A stretch of 64,000 nt of DNA from Thermodesulfobacteriota bacterium. Its GTDB lineage: Bacteria > Desulfobacterota > Syntrophorhabdia > Syntrophorhabdales > JANXAF01. The notes under the pieces are model-generated. The model had not been told where the DNA came from. It saw nothing but the letters and a program-made list of their open reading frames with translations, and did no database searches. Position numbers and translations under genes: made by a program. Positions 14,817 to 44,345 of the stretch are shown here, one piece after another. The stretch covers positions 105,444-169,443 of the forward strand of contig JANXAF010000003.1 in assembly GCA_025062045.1 (NCBI GenBank), given 5' to 3'. Position 1 is the first letter of the stretch. Each line of letters begins with the position of its first letter.

Positions 14817-16155
14817 GCTAAAACAAGAGCAAAAACTAGCACCGATTCTTACCCAGAGGCTTCAACAGGCAATCAAACTGCTCCAGCTTTCCCGAATGGA
14901 GCTTATGGATGTAATTGAGGAGGAACTAAGAGAAAACCCTGTTTTGGAGATCAAGGAAAAAGATGAAGGTGAAACACAAGAAGAAAGTGTAACAAAAGAG
15001 GAAATCGTCGAACTTCTGGAGAAATACTCACCTTCCGAGGGCTATGAAGAGTACGAGGAAAAGGAAGTTCCAGACTACGAGAGAATCTTAAAAAAAAATC
15101 AGAATCTCAGAGATTATCTTAGGTGGCAGGTGAGTGTTTCTGATTTTTCCCAGGTGGAAAGACAAGTTGCAGAGTGGGTGATAGAGAGTATAGACGACAA
15201 TGGTTATCTCATGACAGACCCGGAAGAGATATCGAAAGAATCAGGATTTTCAAAGGAGCTCGTAACTAAGGTTTTAGAGAAGATTAAAAAACTCGACCCT
15301 CCCGGGGTTGGAGCTCAGAGCTTGAAGGAATGTATACTTTTGCAATACTACTCTAAAGAAAAGGCAGACCCACTCTTTGAGCTAGTTCTTAAAAAGTACT
15401 TTGAGTTGCTTAAGGATGGGAAACTTTTAGAGATATCGAAAAAGACAGGAATTCCACTTAGCAAGGTCAAAGAGATGTATAATGAACTTAAGACCTTCGA
15501 TCCAAAACCGGGCCGAAATTTTGCGGACGAAAACACGATTTATGTGGTGCCTGACGTATTCGTTGTGAGAAAGGATGATGGGTTCGATGTGGTGCTTAAC
15601 GATGAGGAACTGCCGGAGCTCAGAATAAATAAGTATTACCTTCAACTATACGCCGACGATAAAGTAGACCCTAAAACAAAGAAATTCATAAAGAACAAGA
15701 TTAAACAGGCAGAGTGGTTCATAAAAAGTTTGGAACAAAGAAGAAAGACACTTTACATGGTGGCAAAAAGTATAGTCAGGTTCCAAGAGGAATTCCTAAA
15801 AAAAGGTATACGCTATTTAAAACCTCTGACACTTAAAGATGTTGCCATAGATGTTGGAGTTCACGAATCAACTGTGAGCAGAATCACGACAAACAAGTAT
15901 ATGTCTACTCCTTTTGGAACGTACGAGATGAAATTCTTCTTTCCTCAAGCCATAGATAGCGTTGCGTCCGATTCTGTAATGAATCTCATAAAAGAGCTGA
16001 TCGACAAGGAGGATAAAAAAGCACCCCTAACGGACGATGAGATAACTTACATACTTAGGGAAAAGTACGGAATAAAAATCGCAAGGAGGACGGTCGTAAA
16101 GTACAGGGAGGCACTAAATATAGGTTCTTCAAGGCAAAGAAAAGAAAAAATGTGA
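14809..16155 (+). CDS. rpoN: RNA polymerase sigma-54 factor
   Basis: This alternative sigma factor recognises -24/-12 promoters and needs an AAA+ activator. Region I is glutamine and leucine rich (QEQKLAPILTQRLQQAIKLL). The core-binding region occupies the centre. The DNA-binding part includes VHESTVSRITTNKYMSTPFG, and the RpoN box is ARRTVVKYREALNI near the C-terminus. Its 448 residues are normal. A matching activator (39495-40844) and a clear sigma-54 promoter (43384-43399) occur in the same window. It overlaps lptB. Confidence 0.97.
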   Translation: MLELKQEQKLAPILTQRLQQAIKLLQLSRMELMDVIEEELRENPVLEIKEKDEGETQEESVTKEEIVELLEKYSPSEGYEEYEEKEVPDYERILKKNQNLRDYLRWQVSVSDFSQVERQVAEWVIESIDDNGYLMTDPEEISKESGFSKELVTKVLEKIKKLDPPGVGAQSLKECILLQYYSKEKADPLFELVLKKYFELLKDGKLLEISKKTGIPLSKVKEMYNELKTFDPKPGRNFADENTIYVVPDVFVVRKDDGFDVVLNDEELPELRINKYYLQLYADDKVDPKTKKFIKNKIKQAEWFIKSLEQRRKTLYMVAKSIVRFQEEFLKKGIRYLKPLTLKDVAIDVGVHESTVSRITTNKYMSTPFGTYEMKFFFPQAIDSVASDSVMNLIKELIDKEDKKAPLTDDEITYILREKYGIKIARRTVVKYREALNIGSSRQRKEKM

Positions 16156-38330: not shown

Positions 38331-39074
38331 TTACTTTAAAGGTGGGATGCGGACGATAAATTTTGTCCCTTTCTCCTCTTCACTGTGTATCTGAATATCT
38401 CCTCTTGCTCTTTCTAAGATGACTTTAACACAACTCAACCCGAAACCCAATCCTTCCACATTACCATCTTTTTTCAGACCCATATGAGCGAACCTTTTAA
38501 ATATACATTCCTTTTTTTCCTGGGTTATGCCAGGACCATCGTCTTCGACTTGAATATATAAGTCCCTATCGCCAAAAACGTTGATCACGACATTCTTTCT
38601 TCTGTACTTAAGTGCGTTACTAAAGAGATTCCTCATAATTTGCAACACCTTTGTACGATCGTGGAAGAAGTCTTCATTTAAATACCTTCCCTCAATTGTC
38701 ACAAATATGCAAGCATTTTGGAGCTCGGATATGAAATTTTCGTCGTCCTGACAAAGATAAAGCCTTTCCGCCAATTCAGGAAGTTGCAGATCGAGTACTT
38801 CTATGAGTGCTTCTTTTATCGCGTCTTTGACAGAAAAGTAAGAACCGTCAAATCTTCCCTCTTCGGATTTTAAAGCCTCCACCATCTCTGAAAGGAGATA
38901 CTGCGCCTTTTTTGCATTTCTTAGAGTCCTTTTGAGCACTTTTTTCTGCTCTTCTGTGAGTTTTCCGTACCTCTCTTCCTTAAAGAGAAGGTTTGTAAGG
39001 TCACTATTGATTATAGAGATAGGACCCCCAAGGTCGTGGACAAGAAGATCGTGTAGACTTTCTTTCTTTCGCAC
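38331..39074 (-). CDS. Soluble orphan sensor histidine kinase
   Basis: This 247-residue histidine kinase has no transmembrane segment and no recognisable sensory domain. The phospho-acceptor is H13 in LLVHDLGGPIS. The N box is IMRNLFSNALKYR, G1 is VEDDGPGITQ, and G2 is GLGFGLSCVKVI. It starts at GTG 39074. No response-regulator gene is directly beside it; the nearest (39495-40844) pairs better with the membrane kinase next to it. It may be an accessory kinase that acts with another sensor. Confidence 0.85.
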   Translation of the reverse strand: MRKKESLHDLLVHDLGGPISIINSDLTNLLFKEERYGKLTEEQKKVLKRTLRNAKKAQYLLSEMVEALKSEEGRFDGSYFSVKDAIKEALIEVLDLQLPELAERLYLCQDDENFISELQNACIFVTIEGRYLNEDFFHDRTKVLQIMRNLFSNALKYRRKNVVINVFGDRDLYIQVEDDGPGITQEKKECIFKRFAHMGLKKDGNVEGLGFGLSCVKVILERARGDIQIHSEEEKGTKFIVRIPPLK

Positions 39075-39123: not shown

Positions 39124-39146
39124 AAGCTTTTGCGCGAAAAAAGCTT
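39124..39146. promoter_or_regulatory. Palindrome over the -35 region of the 39169 gene, candidate operator
   Basis: AAGCTTTT (39124-39131) and AAAAGCTT (39139-39146) form perfect 8-base arms around a 7-base spacer. The repeat covers the -35 hexamer of the adjacent promoter, a common place for a repressor site. Confidence 0.4.
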
Positions 39147-39158
39147 CTGTGGTATAAG
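39130..39158 (+). promoter_or_regulatory. Promoter of the 39169 gene
   Basis: TTGCGC (39130-39135) and TATAAG (39153-39158) are separated by 17 bases. Transcription would begin about four bases before ATG 39169, giving a near-leaderless mRNA. Confidence 0.45.
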
Positions 39159-39168
39159 TTTTAAGGCA

Positions 39169-39498
39169 ATGGAAATCTTCGTTCTTATGGATAGCGCTTT
39201 CTTCGGAAGGGGTGTATTCGGAATATTTACGAGTATGGAACTTGCTACAAGTTACAGAGACTCCATCGACGATGTGATCTCTTGGTGGGAAATAAAAAAG
39301 TTAAGTTTGATCGGCGGAGAACCTGACGACGAAAAGGTGTACGCCGCCTACACTTATTATGAACTTTACGACTGTTATAGCCTCGAAGGCATCTACGCAA
39401 ACGGAGAAGACGCGAAGGAAGCTGTTGGGAAAAAAGGCATGGTAGTCGAGTTCGTTCTGGATCGTCCTAATCAAAAAAGACTCCTTCTTGAAACTTAA
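39169..39498 (+). CDS. Hypothetical protein with an apparent internal duplication
   Basis: This 109-residue cytoplasmic protein is not assigned to a family with confidence. It seems to contain two related halves: MEIFVLMDSAFFGRGVFGIF plus a following helix, and KVYAAYTYYELYDCYSLEGI plus a following helix (EDAKEAVGKKG). Each half has the form strand, acidic turn, strand with Gly, then helix, recalling small DUF7336-like proteins. ATG 39169 is preferred over the TTG at 39130, which lies inside the promoter. It is a lone plus-strand gene between two minus-strand signalling operons, convergent with the response regulator (4-base overlap). Confidence 0.6.
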   Translation: MEIFVLMDSAFFGRGVFGIFTSMELATSYRDSIDDVISWWEIKKLSLIGGEPDDEKVYAAYTYYELYDCYSLEGIYANGEDAKEAVGKKGMVVEFVLDRPNQKRLLLET

Positions 39499-40844
39499 GG
39501 TTTCTCCTTCTCGATCCCGTACTTTTTCATCTTGTACCTCAACATTCTTTCACTTAACCCTAAAATCTTCGCAGCCTTCGTCTGAATCCAGTTACTTTCA
39601 TCTAAGGCCTTAATTATCATGCTTTTTTCGATAGATTCGGTAAATTCTCTAAGTGTTGTTTTTTGCTCCAATTTAGAGCTTTGAGGAAGCCCAAAAAGGT
39701 CCTCTGTCTTTATGTACTCGTCCCTTGTGAGAACTACTGCCCGTTCAATTATGTTTTCGAGTTCTCTCACATTTCCGGGATAGTCGTGTTTCAAAAGAGT
39801 GTCTCTTGCTTCCCTCGATATGCCTTTTATGTTCTTTTTATGCTTCAAACTATATTTTTTTATGAAATGCTCAACAAGGGGCGGTATGTCCTCTTTTCTT
39901 TCTCTCAAAGGCGGAATGTATATCCTTATCACGTTCAGTCTAAAGTAGAGGTCCTCACGGAATAACCCTTTTTTAATAAGCTCTTCTAAGTTTTTATTAG
40001 TTGCGGCAAGAATTCTCACATCAACCTTTATCGGCCTTATAGAACCAAGTGGGTGAATCTCTCTGTTTTGGATCACCCTTAGAAGCTTTGCCTGTATAGA
40101 AAGCGGCATATCACCAATTTCGTCAAGAAAAATGGTTCCTTTCTGTGCCAATTCAAATTTTCCAGGCTTTCTTTGGTATGCACCGGTGAACGCCCCTCTC
40201 TCATATCCAAATAGCTCACTTTCTAGCAATGTTTCTGGAAAAGCTGCGCAGTTAACCTTCACGAGCGGGTGCTTAGCCCTATCACTCAACGCATGCATAA
40301 GATCAACAACTACCTCTTTCCCCACGCCGCTTTCGCCTTCTATAAGACATGTGGAATCAGTTTTTGCAACCCTTACTATTAGGCTTGCCACCTCCTTCAT
40401 GCTTACGCTTTCAAAAATGAAGTCCTCGGTTTTGAGTCTTTCCTTCAACGTCTCCCTTAGGATTCTGTTTTCCGAAATGAGAGCTCTTTTTTCTTCTAAC
40501 TTTTTCAGTTTTATCAGTAGATCTTCGAAGTTTATAGGTTTTGTTAGATAATCCTCTGCGCCGGATTTTAATGCCTGAACAGCACTCTCTACACTTCCGT
40601 AAGCAGTTACAATTATGATACTCAGTTCGGGGTCCTCTTTTTTGAGTTCTCTCACGAGAGTGACCCCGTCTATGTCAGGAAGCCTAAGATCGAGAATGCA
40701 AAAATCGATAGGTAACCTTTTTACTATCTCCAATCCATCGTAGGCCTTTTCTGCTTCGTAGACTGTGTACCCATCCTGTCTTAAAAGGTGGCAAAGGAGC
40801 TCCCTTTGGAGTCTTTCATCTTCTATAACGAGTACATTAGCCAT
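39495..40844 (-). CDS. Sigma-54-dependent NtrC-family response regulator, ZraR-like
   Basis: This 449-residue regulator has a receiver domain with phospho-acceptor D52 (FCILDLRLPD). An AAA+ domain follows with Walker A GESGVGKE and the sigma-54 contact loop GAFTGA. The C-terminus is a Fis-type helix-turn-helix (TKAAKILGLSERMLRYKM). It activates promoters read by RpoN, encoded at 14809-16155. It follows the kinase gene by 15 bases, and both lie downstream of two ZraP/Spy-like genes with a sigma-54 promoter, giving a complete regulator-target set. Confidence 0.93.
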   Translation of the reverse strand: MANVLVIEDERLQRELLCHLLRQDGYTVYEAEKAYDGLEIVKRLPIDFCILDLRLPDIDGVTLVRELKKEDPELSIIIVTAYGSVESAVQALKSGAEDYLTKPINFEDLLIKLKKLEEKRALISENRILRETLKERLKTEDFIFESVSMKEVASLIVRVAKTDSTCLIEGESGVGKEVVVDLMHALSDRAKHPLVKVNCAAFPETLLESELFGYERGAFTGAYQRKPGKFELAQKGTIFLDEIGDMPLSIQAKLLRVIQNREIHPLGSIRPIKVDVRILAATNKNLEELIKKGLFREDLYFRLNVIRIYIPPLRERKEDIPPLVEHFIKKYSLKHKKNIKGISREARDTLLKHDYPGNVRELENIIERAVVLTRDEYIKTEDLFGLPQSSKLEQKTTLREFTESIEKSMIIKALDESNWIQTKAAKILGLSERMLRYKMKKYGIEKEKP

Positions 40845-40859
40845 AATTGAGCCTTTTTT

Positions 40860-42410
40860 CTAATTGGGAAATAGGATGGAAACTTTTGTTCCTTTCCCTT
40901 TCATACTTTCAACCTTTATTTCGGCTCCGTGGTCTTTAAAAATCGCGTAAGATATTGGGAGTCCAAGTCCTAGCCCCTTTTCCTTCGTTGAGTAGTGGTA
41001 CTCGAATATCTTTTCTAGATCCTCACGATCTATTCCGCAGCCACTATCCTTTATGGAAATCACAAGACCCTTGTCTGTCTTTCTTGCGTCGATTTTTACA
41101 AAACCACCGTTTTCTGTGGCCTCTATTCCATTCAAGATAACGTTTATAAAGGCCTGTTTGAGTTTTTGCCTCCGACCTGATATTTTGAGGCCTGGCGGGA
41201 CAAGATTTTGAAGCTCTACCCCTCTCATTTTTGCCTTCTCCTCAAGAACTAGGATAATGTCATCCATGAGAACTTTTAAATCGAGATTCTCCTCTTTCGT
41301 CTCCTTTTTAGAAACCACGATAAACTCCTCAACAATTCGATTTATCCTTAGTACTTCATCTTCCACCGCCCCGAGAAACCTCTCGAATTCCACTCTGCGT
41401 GAGTCATTTGGCAGAAAATCTCTTCCTAGCCTTTTCAAAGATAGGGAGATAGCGTTTAGTGGATTTCTTATTTCATGAGCCATGGCGGATGAGAGTAACC
41501 CAAGGGACATAAGCCTTTCGTTTCTAGCCTTTTCTTTTTCGATCTCGATCATCTTAATTTTTAGTCGCTTCTCAAAGAAAAGTATAGCAGAGATTGCAAG
41601 CAAACTTATGCCAAGGAGGAGGAATAGCGTAAATACCACCATAAAACTCATTCTTTTTATTGTTTCGTCTATGATGTTTCGAGTAAGTAGAATCTCTACC
41701 GAATAACCCCTAAAGTAATTTGATTCAAGCCTTTTAAAGTACCTGTAAAGTCCGTCATGAGACTGGCAAGCTATGTAATAAGGCCGGCCATCCGCATCGT
41801 AAATATTGATGCCTTTGAGCTTCAATCTTTCCATCTCTCTTTCGACAATTTTTTTTAATATCGATTTTCTTTTCAGCTCGAGCATTTCATCTTTAGTGAG
41901 AGATAGAATCACTATCCTATCTTGAAAATTAAAGCCCAAAATCACATAGGATCCCTTTTCCTTCATTTTAAAAAGAATACGATCCTTTCCCGAAAGCAGA
42001 CTTTTTAAAAGGTCAGTTTCGTCCTTTATCTTTCCCTTTCTTTCTATGGGAAATCCTTTTGAATCAAAAATGGTGTATGTGGCTACGGGAGCATCTCTTT
42101 TTTCTTGAAATGCTTTTATCACCTCATCAAGAAGTTCCTCGATTAGTACCTCCTCGTAGGTTATAAGATCGAGAAATGCCTGGGTTAAAAAAATGTTCGA
42201 GTGTTCTATAAGGTCGAGGTACCCAAAAGTTAAGTCTATCTCCCGGGCCAAATGGCGGTGTATGATTTCGGCTTCTTTGACGAGAAGATCTTCCATACTC
42301 TTTTTTATGTTGGCAATCTGAGCATAACCAATAAACACGACAATTCCAAAAAGTGCACAAAGGATACAAAAAAGATAGACCGATCTTTTTCTCGCAGTGA
42401 AGTTAAACAT
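40860..42410 (-). CDS. Membrane sensor histidine kinase, ZraS/NtrB-like
   Basis: This 516-residue kinase has two transmembrane segments (about 11-31 and 254-279) flanking a periplasmic sensor region of roughly 220 residues, which looks Cache-like. The phospho-acceptor is H312 in SAMAHEIRNPLNAI. ATPase motifs are FINVILNGIEA, IKDSGCGID and GLGLGLPISYAI. The start codon overlaps the stop of the upstream Spy-like gene by one base (TAATG). It is inferred to sense envelope or metal stress and to phosphorylate the adjacent regulator. Confidence 0.92.
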   Translation of the reverse strand: MFNFTARKRSVYLFCILCALFGIVVFIGYAQIANIKKSMEDLLVKEAEIIHRHLAREIDLTFGYLDLIEHSNIFLTQAFLDLITYEEVLIEELLDEVIKAFQEKRDAPVATYTIFDSKGFPIERKGKIKDETDLLKSLLSGKDRILFKMKEKGSYVILGFNFQDRIVILSLTKDEMLELKRKSILKKIVEREMERLKLKGINIYDADGRPYYIACQSHDGLYRYFKRLESNYFRGYSVEILLTRNIIDETIKRMSFMVVFTLFLLLGISLLAISAILFFEKRLKIKMIEIEKEKARNERLMSLGLLSSAMAHEIRNPLNAISLSLKRLGRDFLPNDSRRVEFERFLGAVEDEVLRINRIVEEFIVVSKKETKEENLDLKVLMDDIILVLEEKAKMRGVELQNLVPPGLKISGRRQKLKQAFINVILNGIEATENGGFVKIDARKTDKGLVISIKDSGCGIDREDLEKIFEYHYSTKEKGLGLGLPISYAIFKDHGAEIKVESMKGKGTKVSILFPN

Positions 42411-42838
42411 TACTCAAAGATGCGTTTTAACCGTCTTCTCTCATTTTTGCAGAAATCTTCAAAAATTCTCCTTTGGTGGGGATTGAGAACGGAGCTAATC
42501 TCGTCTTTATACCTTTCGTAGAGCATCTCCCTTTTTAATTTTAGATCTCCGATCTCACGCCTAATCCTTAGTATCCTTACCCTATTGGCATCCCCTTTTT
42601 TCATTTCATGTATCATCTCGAGTCTTTTCCGTAAAAGTTCCTCCCTTGTTGCTAAAATTTCTTGGAGGTACCTTTTTTTTATCTCTTCTATCTTAATTTT
42701 CTGGTCCAAGCTCAGACCGAGCTCCTTTTCTAAATCGTGATCCTGTGCAAGAAGGGGGAAAGAAAAAAAGAAAAGAAAAAGAATGTGTAAACTAAACCTT
42801 TTTTTTATTTTAACAATCTCGAGCAATTTGGCCAACAT
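42410..42838 (-). CDS. Periplasmic Spy/CpxP/ZraP-like protein 2
   Basis: This 142-residue secreted protein has an N-terminal hydrophobic signal (FSLHILFLFFFSFPLLAQ) and then a charged, all-helical mature part. The LTXXQ-type motif appears as LGLSLDQKIKIEEI and again as VLNPHQRRIFEDF. ATG 42838 is chosen over the open frame to 42949 because it gives a proper signal peptide. A TATAAT lies nine bases upstream (42853-42848) and no Shine-Dalgarno sequence is present. It is followed directly by the kinase gene, consistent with a periplasmic chaperone that tunes the sensor. Confidence 0.72.
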   Translation of the reverse strand: MLAKLLEIVKIKKRFSLHILFLFFFSFPLLAQDHDLEKELGLSLDQKIKIEEIKKRYLQEILATREELLRKRLEMIHEMKKGDANRVRILRIRREIGDLKLKREMLYERYKDEISSVLNPHQRRIFEDFCKNERRRLKRIFE

Positions 42839-42847
42839 TGAGACTCT

Positions 42848-42853
42848 ATTATA
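42848..42853 (-). promoter_or_regulatory. Candidate -10 box for the second Spy-like gene
   Basis: A perfect TATAAT (minus strand) ends nine bases before ATG 42838. The -35 region is poor. It would start a nearly leaderless mRNA for the Spy-like protein, kinase and regulator, independent of the sigma-54 promoter upstream. Confidence 0.35.
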
Positions 42854-42870
42854 ACGCGAGGATGAGGAAA

Positions 42871-42892
42871 TAAAAAAGGGCCAGAAGGCCCC
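42871..42892 (-). terminator. Rho-independent terminator after the first Spy-like gene
   Basis: On the minus strand GGGCC, loop TTCT and GGCCC form a five-base-pair GC stem followed at once by six T residues. It lies about 30 bases after the stop at 42924 and would separate this gene from the next, perhaps with partial read-through. Confidence 0.65.
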
Positions 42893-42923
42893 ACAAAAAG
42901 AAGAACTTTGAAGTCCGATTGAG

Positions 42924-43343
42924 CTATCCACACCTAAAAAACCGTCCAAAGCGACAGTCCCTCATTTTTTCCAACTCGCTTGGTGAAAAAAGCTTCCTCT
43001 CTTCTAGTTTGCGTTCCAAAATTTTCTCCCTGAGCCTTTCAAGAAGGCTGGCCAATTCTTTATGCTTAGCCCTTATTTCTTCTTCTTTTGCCTGAGGATC
43101 GAAATAGAGCCTTCGAAGCTCCATCTTTGTTTTGATGATCTCTTCCCTTAATAGCTCGGCTTCTTTTCTAAATCTTTCTCTTATTTCTTTCAACCTTTCT
43201 AGCTTCTCTTTGGAAAGGTCGGCAAGGATTGGGATGTCACGTTTTTCCTTTAGGCATCCTATGAATCCTTGGGCATACGTATGACTTAAGCTTCCGAAAA
43301 TGAAAAGAATTGCGATGAGCATTACTTTTAGGCTTTTCCGCAT
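42924..43343 (-). CDS. Periplasmic Spy/CpxP/ZraP-like protein 1
   Basis: This 139-residue secreted protein has a signal peptide (LIAILFIFGSLSHTYA, cut near residue 24) and a long charged helical mature region typical of Spy/ZraP chaperones. Cysteines at C30 and in the tail (RDCRFGRFFRCG) could bind metal or form a disulfide. A strong AGGAGGT lies about seven bases before the ATG. A sigma-54 promoter sits upstream and a terminator downstream, so it is likely the main induced target of the adjacent kinase and regulator. Which metal or stress is sensed is unknown. Confidence 0.75.
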   Translation of the reverse strand: MRKSLKVMLIAILFIFGSLSHTYAQGFIGCLKEKRDIPILADLSKEKLERLKEIRERFRKEAELLREEIIKTKMELRRLYFDPQAKEEEIRAKHKELASLLERLREKILERKLEERKLFSPSELEKMRDCRFGRFFRCG

Positions 43344-43383
43344 TTTCTGACCTCCTTCTTTATTAGCTCTTTAACTGAAATAT

Positions 43384-43399
43384 AGCAAGGACCGTACCG
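43384..43399 (-). promoter_or_regulatory. Sigma-54 promoter of the first Spy-like gene
   Basis: Read on the minus strand, CGGTACGGTCCTTGCT matches the -24/-12 consensus with the invariant GG and GC exactly ten bases apart. The predicted start site is near 43373, leaving about a 30-base leader with a strong Shine-Dalgarno sequence before ATG 43343. Confidence 0.75.
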
Positions 43400-43424
43400 A
43401 AAATGGCCTCTAGAAACAGAATGA

Positions 43425-43435
43425 CTTAGGCTAAG
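43425..43435. promoter_or_regulatory. Palindrome upstream of the sigma-54 promoter
   Basis: CTTAGGCTAAG is a perfect 5-1-5 palindrome centred about 57 bases upstream of the predicted sigma-54 start. It could be an activator site, though closer than is usual. Confidence 0.3.
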
Positions 43436-43449
43436 ATGTCGGAAGATTC

Positions 43450-43476
43450 TGTCGAGATTAAAAAAATGACTCGACA
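43450..43476. promoter_or_regulatory. Inverted repeat, candidate enhancer site for the NtrC-type regulator
   Basis: TGTCGAG (43450-43456) and CTCGACA (43470-43476) are perfect 7-base arms 13 bases apart, centred about 90 bases upstream of the sigma-54 start. Position and symmetry fit an upstream activating sequence. Confidence 0.45.
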
Positions 43477-43499
43477 TTTTTGTCGATCTTCGCTAATAT
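43471..43499 (+). promoter_or_regulatory. Promoter and operator-like palindrome of the HDAC-family gene
   Basis: TCGACA (43471-43476), 17 bases, then TAATAT (43494-43499) form a plausible promoter whose +1 would fall on the GTG at 43506. The -35 is one arm of the palindrome TCGACA-TTTT-TGTCGA (43471-43486), so a protein bound there would block it. Confidence 0.45.
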
Positions 43500-43505
43500 T
43501 ACCTT

Positions 43506-44345
43506 GTGACCAAGGTTGGGGTTTTTTTCCATCCGCATTTTGCCGAGATGGATTGGCCTGTGATTGGAAACAAGTACAAGAATTTTCCATTGATCCTTAA
43601 ACGCTTTTCGGGGAGAGAAGACATCAGGATCTTTGAGCCTCCGGATCCGGACATTGAACTCATCCTTCTGGTCCACAAAAGATCTTATGTCGAATCGCTA
43701 AAGAGTATGTGGTATTTCAGAGCTGCCGCCCTTTCAGTCTCCGGGACTCATATGGCCTTAAAGATGATAAAGGAAGGGTTGATTAGAAACGCCCTCGTCT
43801 TTTCCTGTGCGGCCGGGCATCACGCAGAGAGAGACTCCGGATGGGGGGGAACGTATCTCTCATGTATAGGTCCTGCCGTTTACTCTTACTGGAAAGATTA
43901 CGGTAGGGAAAGGTTCGCCATAATAGACACCGATAGCCACCACGGAAACGGGACGAGGGATATCTTTAGAAACGAACCGGATGTTCTCCATGTTTGTTTC
44001 TGTTCCATGAACAGAGTGGAAGGTCAGGGGGAAAAGGTAGATGTGGACGTGGGTTTTGAAATATCCGATGACGATTATCTTAGTCTCGTGGAAAGAGAAT
44101 TCTACCCACGTGTTGAGGCCTTTAAGCCCTACGCCATATTTCACAACTTTGGACACGACACCTGTAGGGGCGACTACGGAGATCGGGGTTTGAGTGAAGA
44201 TTTCTTTTTAAGACTTGCAAGACAGGTTAAGTCTTACGCATCCTCCCTGTGTGAGGGGAGATACATAGTTATAACCCACGGAGGAGCAAGAAGAGACGTA
44301 GCCGAATACATTTTTCCGGAGATCATAAACATTCTGGCGGAGTAA
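43506..44345 (+). CDS. Histone deacetylase superfamily protein, apparently lacking the catalytic tyrosine
   Basis: This 279-residue protein has an arginase/deacetylase fold. The two active-site histidines H105 and H106 (AAGHHAERDS), zinc ligands D143 and H145 (DTDSHHGNGT) and the third ligand D218 (FGHDTCRGD) are visible. The usual GGGYN loop carrying the transition-state tyrosine reads HGGARRD instead, and the protein is shorter than most relatives. Bacterial relatives act on acetylated amines or lysines. Activity may be altered, as in eukaryotic class IIa enzymes where this tyrosine is replaced. It starts at GTG with no Shine-Dalgarno sequence and a -10 six bases upstream. Confidence 0.83.
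   Translation: MTKVGVFFHPHFAEMDWPVIGNKYKNFPLILKRFSGREDIRIFEPPDPDIELILLVHKRSYVESLKSMWYFRAAALSVSGTHMALKMIKEGLIRNALVFSCAAGHHAERDSGWGGTYLSCIGPAVYSYWKDYGRERFAIIDTDSHHGNGTRDIFRNEPDVLHVCFCSMNRVEGQGEKVDVDVGFEISDDDYLSLVEREFYPRVEAFKPYAIFHNFGHDTCRGDYGDRGLSEDFFLRLARQVKSYASSLCEGRYIVITHGGARRDVAEYIFPEIINILAE

Follow-up and report, generated by a model that had tools for sequence, protein, structure and literature searches.

A Predicted Sigma-54-Dependent Envelope-Stress Operon with a Paired Enhancer in the Syntrophorhabdales

Two Spy/ZraP-like secreted proteins, a membrane sensor histidine kinase, and a response regulator of the NtrC family are encoded one after another on the minus strand of a Thermodesulfobacteriota contig, which raises the question of whether these genes form an envelope-stress system comparable to ZraPSR and what drives their transcription. 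The window, i.e., the whole 64,000-nt stretch that was analyzed, covers positions 105,444-169,443 of the forward strand of JANXAF010000003.1 (assembly GCA_025062045.1), part of a genome of 1.76 Mb in 29 contigs. Within it lie spy1 (42924-43343, 139 aa, ATG at 43343), spy2 (42410-42835, ~141 aa, start codon uncertain), the kinase gene (40860-42410, 516 aa), and the regulator gene (39495-40844, 449 aa), all on the minus strand. This order, from 43343 to 39495, is the one given by the original prediction, which was made from the sequence alone; its ZraPSR-like composition is also borne out, as spy1 is ZraP-like by profile and fold, and the activator carries the GAFTGA motif. On the evidence below, it is quite probable that the genes constitute an envelope-stress operon that depends on sigma-54, regulates itself, and functions in the manner of ZraPSR.

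The locus was compared with 59 relatives, 45 of them from the same family or order and 14 others. Near full-length orthologues of the kinase are present in 40 of the 59, every one of them within the group of 45; those bearing names are Syntrophorhabdaceae, Syntrophorhabdus, and metagenome-assembled genomes labeled "Deltaproteobacteria." Among the 40 kinase loci that were compared, four (L048, L056, L059, and L080) end at a contig edge before the promoter, leaving 36 testable relatives or, with the window, 37 loci for the enhancer counts. The gene order spy1-(lipoprotein)-spy2-kinase-regulator was found repeatedly across these relatives.

A paired enhancer and a conserved promoter

The strongest evidence for sigma-54 control is, by sequence comparison, an enhancer that the original prediction missed. 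This upstream activating sequence (UAS) has two predicted parts on the minus strand: (i) UAS1, the palindrome ATCGACAAAAATGTCGAG at 43470-43487, which agrees with TTCGACANNNNTGTCGAA at 12 of 14 positions and has its core TCGACA-N4-TGTCGA at 43486-43471; and (ii) UAS2, a second half-site CTCGACAGAATCTTCC at 43441-43456, which lies 31 nt past the start of UAS1 and is followed by a further CCGACA. The palindrome TTCGACA-N4-TGTCGAA precedes the promoter in all 37 loci, with 11-14 of its 14 positions retained, and a second CGACA half-site starts 31-32 nt further on in 34 of them (consensus in relatives TTCGACATTTATTKCC). At least 12 of the 14 positions were matched in only 0.07% of shuffled regions. 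The palindrome is found 88-134 nt upstream of the promoter in all 37 loci, and its distances to the -24 element cluster at 88-90, 108-110, 120-125, and 133-134 nt, which suggests that a constant face of the DNA has been retained; Rayleigh tests of this phasing are descriptive only and carry no p-value weight, because the sequences are related.

Across the 1.76 Mb of the genome, the perfect 16-mer TCGACA-N4-TGTCGA is found a single time, at the operon, and among the 24 sigma-54-like sites of this genome, a UAS is found at that of the operon (12/14), with no more than 9/14 at the others. Allowing two mismatches made the palindrome too loose to serve as a target finder in this genome (102 sites per strand, where the reversed control gave 57), and it was abandoned for that use. 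The tandem-UAS pattern, defined as the palindrome plus a CGACA 6-26 nt on, gave 88 matches in the genome and its 59 relatives, compared with 3 when reversed as a control, and was present in 42 of the 45 same-order genomes and in 2 of the 14 others. On the opposite strand, a histone-deacetylase-like gene (43506-44345, plus strand) begins 20 nt away from the enhancer, and the DNA upstream of the enhancer looks alike in the window and its nearest relatives.

The predicted -24/-12 promoter, CGGTACGGTCCTTGCT at 43384-43399 on the minus strand, would place the transcription start near 43373, ahead of a Shine-Dalgarno sequence (AAGGAGGT, 43357-43350) and the spy1 ATG, the ribosome-binding site being as originally described. 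The promoter had been called exact; a GG-N10-GC site does lie at that place, but the word overstates the match, as there are two mismatches to the full consensus TGGCACGNNNNTTGCW. Judged by its own sequence, the motif is no better than chance, and this tells against the proposed control: GG-N10-GC has 284 matches in the window, where 276 ± 15 are expected; TGGCACGNNNNTTGCW with up to two mismatches has 3, where 4.2 are expected; and GGYAYN5TTGCW has 24 sites across the genome versus 18 for the reversed control. Judging the promoter from the motif alone was dropped, as these counts do not exceed the controls. Its position and conservation, when compared across genomes, do exceed chance, because a -24/-12 site with no more than two mismatches lies upstream of the operon in 36 of 36 testable relatives, while a site of equal quality appears in 0.5% of dinucleotide-shuffled 256-nt upstream regions. 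The genome also contains a single copy of rpoN, which falls inside the window (about 15682-16143, plus strand; sigma-54 DNA-binding domain PF04552, E 1.1e-56). Taken with the upstream palindrome and the GAFTGA motif, these data support the sigma-54 dependence that had been proposed.

The window and 32 of the 36 relatives have a spy1-type gene that starts less than 200 nt from the promoter. No such gene was found within that distance in L061 and L065, and the promoters of L068 and L081 are followed first by a gene of another kind. In L065 and L068, the conserved promoter is followed by just a very short or unclear reading frame at the usual place of spy1.

The encoded proteins and their kinship with ZraP, ZraS, and ZraR

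By profile comparison and structure prediction, spy1 belongs to the ZraP family. Its family profile has ZraP (3lay) as the top match in the PDB (E 2.6e-11), hhalign against E. coli ZraP gives 97.8%, and the Pfam Metal_resist model matches 16 of 16 aligned family members at E 0.01 or better. The AlphaFold2 model (mean pLDDT 73.9) is a helical hairpin whose best fold match is again 3lay (TM 0.85 by target length), with a Foldseek E of just 0.04 for so short a hairpin; CpxP (3qzc, 3itf) and CnrX follow, and NccX is also present. The family profile of spy2 likewise matches ZraP 3lay best (E 1.5e-5), followed by Spy (3o39) at E 0.17. In most relatives, a glycine-zipper lipoprotein gene is tightly spaced between spy1 and spy2; it is missing from the operon in the window and in L046, and a search for a relative elsewhere in the genome gave a weak match only (E 0.002).

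The kinase combines HisKA and HATPase_c domains in a ZraS-like core, the one part that matches E. coli ZraS (29% identity); the sensor shows no detectable sequence similarity to the ZraS sensor. Its periplasmic domain is tentatively dCache-like, as the predicted fold matches KinD best (E 3.6e-6) but with a TM of ~0.33. The regulator, a predicted enhancer-binding activator, is 43% identical to E. coli ZraR over its length and has the architecture of the NtrC type (Response_reg, Sigma54_activat, and HTH_8), i.e., a receiver, an AAA+ domain with GAFTGA, and a Fis-type helix-turn-helix. Of the 38 regulators whose sequence extends to the motif, 37 have GAFTGA; one (G003) has GSFTGA, and G007 keeps GAFTGA.

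Several scores weigh against so close a kinship. The gathering cut-offs of Pfam are missed by spy1 (Metal_resist, 25.9 bits; cut-off 29.2) and by spy2 (LTXXQ, 22.2 bits; cut-off 24.3), and BLASTP of spy1 against E. coli ZraP gives no match, a profile being necessary to see the kinship. The equivalog models for ZraS (153 of 479 bits) and ZraR (383 of 760 bits) fall far below their cut-offs and are outscored by those for AtoS and AtoC. Placement of the regulator with ZraR by tree was given up, as the tree does not pair them.

Downstream of the regulator gene lies that of a second histidine kinase (38331-39074, minus strand, 247 aa), in which the domain scan recognized HATPase_c and, weakly, HisKA, but nothing else. 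Convergent with the regulator gene is a frame of 122 aa (39130-39498, plus strand) that matches DUF7336 below threshold.

Further enhancer sites in relatives

Outside the 40 kinase loci, 41 tandem sites were examined, in 40 stretches hand-picked from the 88 matches. A sigma-54 site with no more than two mismatches lies 61-144 nt downstream of the UAS in 31 of these 41, compared with 1 of 1111 background windows drawn from these loci. No sigma-54 site was found at that distance for the other 10, five of which are in G003 and G007. At least two of the 41 sites (L240 and L241) belong to split operons, of which they supply the missing 5' part; at L223, the UAS precedes a second pair of spy1 and lipoprotein genes. 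Among the genes behind the extra sites are those for small secreted proteins, for a glycine-zipper lipoprotein, and for a protein with a FecR domain; a gene for an FKBP-type isomerase is also among them but has no good -24/-12 site. Loci L229-L233, which belong to G003 and G007, have tandem CGACA enhancers without a recognizable -24/-12 element, and two of them are upstream of FKBP-like genes.

By eye, several of the UAS-linked secreted proteins share with the operon lipoproteins a C-terminal tail, PPGxWVxVPGxWxxGxWVPxHxxWVPVNP. It is borne by L218:1688-2083, L220:1120-1545, L222:13-447, L235:3214-3645, L239:2435-2860, and L227:2361-2798. A Pfam scan of ten UAS-linked proteins left six without a match, among them three small proteins with the tail (L220, L222, and L239).

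With about even confidence, we propose that the operon may be the core of an order-wide sigma-54 regulon for envelope remodeling in the Syntrophorhabdales. Its ZraR-like activator would read paired CGACA sites at fixed, helically phased distances and would also drive small secreted proteins and lipoproteins, several with the common tail, while the small genome of the window would keep the self-activating core only.

Proposed mechanism, alternatives, and known systems

In the mechanism that we propose for the operon, the kinase would sense trouble in the periplasmic part of the envelope and phosphorylate the GAFTGA activator, which would bind the paired CGACA sites (43487-43441) and loop to sigma-54 polymerase at CGGTACGGTCCTTGCT. 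One transcript would carry spy1, spy2, the kinase gene, and the regulator gene, and a hairpin after spy1 would raise the amount of the first ZraP-like protein above that of the others. Both periplasmic proteins would serve as chaperones, probably also restraining the kinase, and transcription of the kinase and regulator genes would provide positive autoregulation.

There are rivals to this mechanism. The activator that binds the paired CGACA sites could be a different one, with the neighboring regulator acting elsewhere, and the genome does encode eight other clear NtrC-type activators. Such an exchange of partners is very unlikely: the UAS pattern is largely confined to the same-order genomes, where the operon with its regulator is also found in 40 of 45; the recognition-helix region of the regulators (QTKAA..LG.SERMLRYK) is nearly invariant; and the UAS accompanies none of the other sigma-54-like sites of the genome. 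It is also unlikely that the system serves metal resistance, with spy1 as a scavenger of zinc or copper, instead of general envelope stress. The sub-cut-off Metal_resist match, CnrX and NccX among the fold matches, and a cysteine within the last 25 residues, with none in the core, in 29 of 33 spy1 proteins all point to metals, E. coli ZraP having a comparable Gly-rich Cys tail, and spy1 may bind zinc. Against this, the operon has no metal exporter, and no metal pumps occur among the examined UAS targets of relatives, which include the lipoprotein, small secreted, and FecR-domain proteins and the FKBP described above; moreover, E. coli ZraR itself has been argued to serve envelope stress, with zinc merely an activator (PMC7657598).

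Whether there is a single transcript is a separate matter. A terminator had been predicted after the first gene, and a T-tailed hairpin (GGGGCC-TTCT-GGCCCT and a T-run) does lie there (42892-42877, minus strand), with a TATAAT (42853-42848, minus strand) before spy2. The spy1, spy2, and kinase genes could thus be separate units, spy1 stopping at the terminator and spy2 starting from its own promoter. We regard this as doubtful, as the TATAAT has a poor -35 (3 of 6 positions by eye), a promoter scan of the region reported no sigma-70 promoter at it, and by eye it is absent in L046, the nearest relative without an intervening gene; the sequence is probably not a promoter, and with the scan negative it was rejected as unsupported. 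Furthermore, the gap is where most relatives hold the lipoprotein gene, and their hairpins often lack a T-run, which points to partial read-through or mRNA stabilization. The hairpin is stable (z < -2) in 18 of 33 loci, a count that leaves out L068 and L081, whose first gene is not spy1 (19 of 35 with both included), and its sequence varies between clades; in 15 of the 33 it is not significant, a result unfavorable to the proposed excess of spy1. Where present, the hairpin is consistent with partial termination or with protection of the 3' end, by which spy1 would exceed the other genes. Of the earlier proposal that spy1 is made in excess, the recurring hairpin stands, and the separate TATAAT promoter does not.

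The single autoregulated operon that we favor resembles ZraPSR of E. coli and Salmonella in its ZraP-family periplasmic protein, membrane kinase, GAFTGA regulator, sigma-54 promoter, and paired upstream sites. In Salmonella and E. coli, ZraR is reported to drive the divergent sigma-54 promoters of zraP and zraSR, with ZraP as a zinc-dependent chaperone (PMC4987338); zinc may be a mere activator of a broader envelope response (PMC7657598), and E. coli ZraR is reported as an autoregulator with a single target, although ChIP-seq gave more (PMC8249747). The layouts differ, as zraP and zraSR of E. coli are divergent around shared enhancers, whereas the operon in the window is co-directional. The paired repeats of E. 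coli read GAGTAAAAATGACTCG and agree with the UAS of the window at no more than 7 of 14 positions, and the UAS was sought in the E. coli zraP-zraS spacer without a match. Unlike E. coli ZraPSR, the operon has a second ZraP-like gene, to which relatives add the lipoprotein, and relatives have further enhancer and promoter sites ahead of other secreted proteins. The operon is not filed as ZraPSR itself, because it lacks the divergent layout and scores below the equivalog cut-offs.

CpxP of CpxP-CpxAR and Spy are periplasmic helical-hairpin chaperones or adaptors of the same fold as spy1 (CpxP 3qzc, 3itf; Spy 3o39); CpxAR is not known to include a sigma-54 activator. A closer parallel in the former Deltaproteobacteria is DVU3381/DVU3382 of D. 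vulgaris, which likewise has a GAFTGA sigma-54 regulator targeting its own operon, and whose further target DVU3384 we take to be ZraP-like. DVU3381 is reported to control its own operon and DVU3384 and is classed under envelope stress (PMC4641369, PMC3333781), which makes this kind of system a known one among related bacteria; the target table for D. vulgaris gives DVU3384 and the kinase-regulator genes as separate units (PMC4641369). In D. alaskensis, zraP is reported as strongly lowered under copper, which cautions against assuming metal induction (PMC8836040). What is new here is the enhancer (as set against the E. coli repeats), the co-directional operon with two ZraP-like genes, and the extra enhancer sites of relatives; a search of titles and beginnings of abstracts in the open-access PMC literature returned no paper on such a system in the Syntrophorhabdales.

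The best-known ZraPSR systems are those of enterobacteria, which act mainly on themselves, and a syntrophic anaerobic order appears to keep a related circuit with a different enhancer and a second chaperone-like protein. Its larger genomes, with more targets, invite comparison on the question of how an autoregulator with one target may become a regulon, and the enhancer could readily be used to search for envelope-stress genes in bacteria that are difficult to grow.

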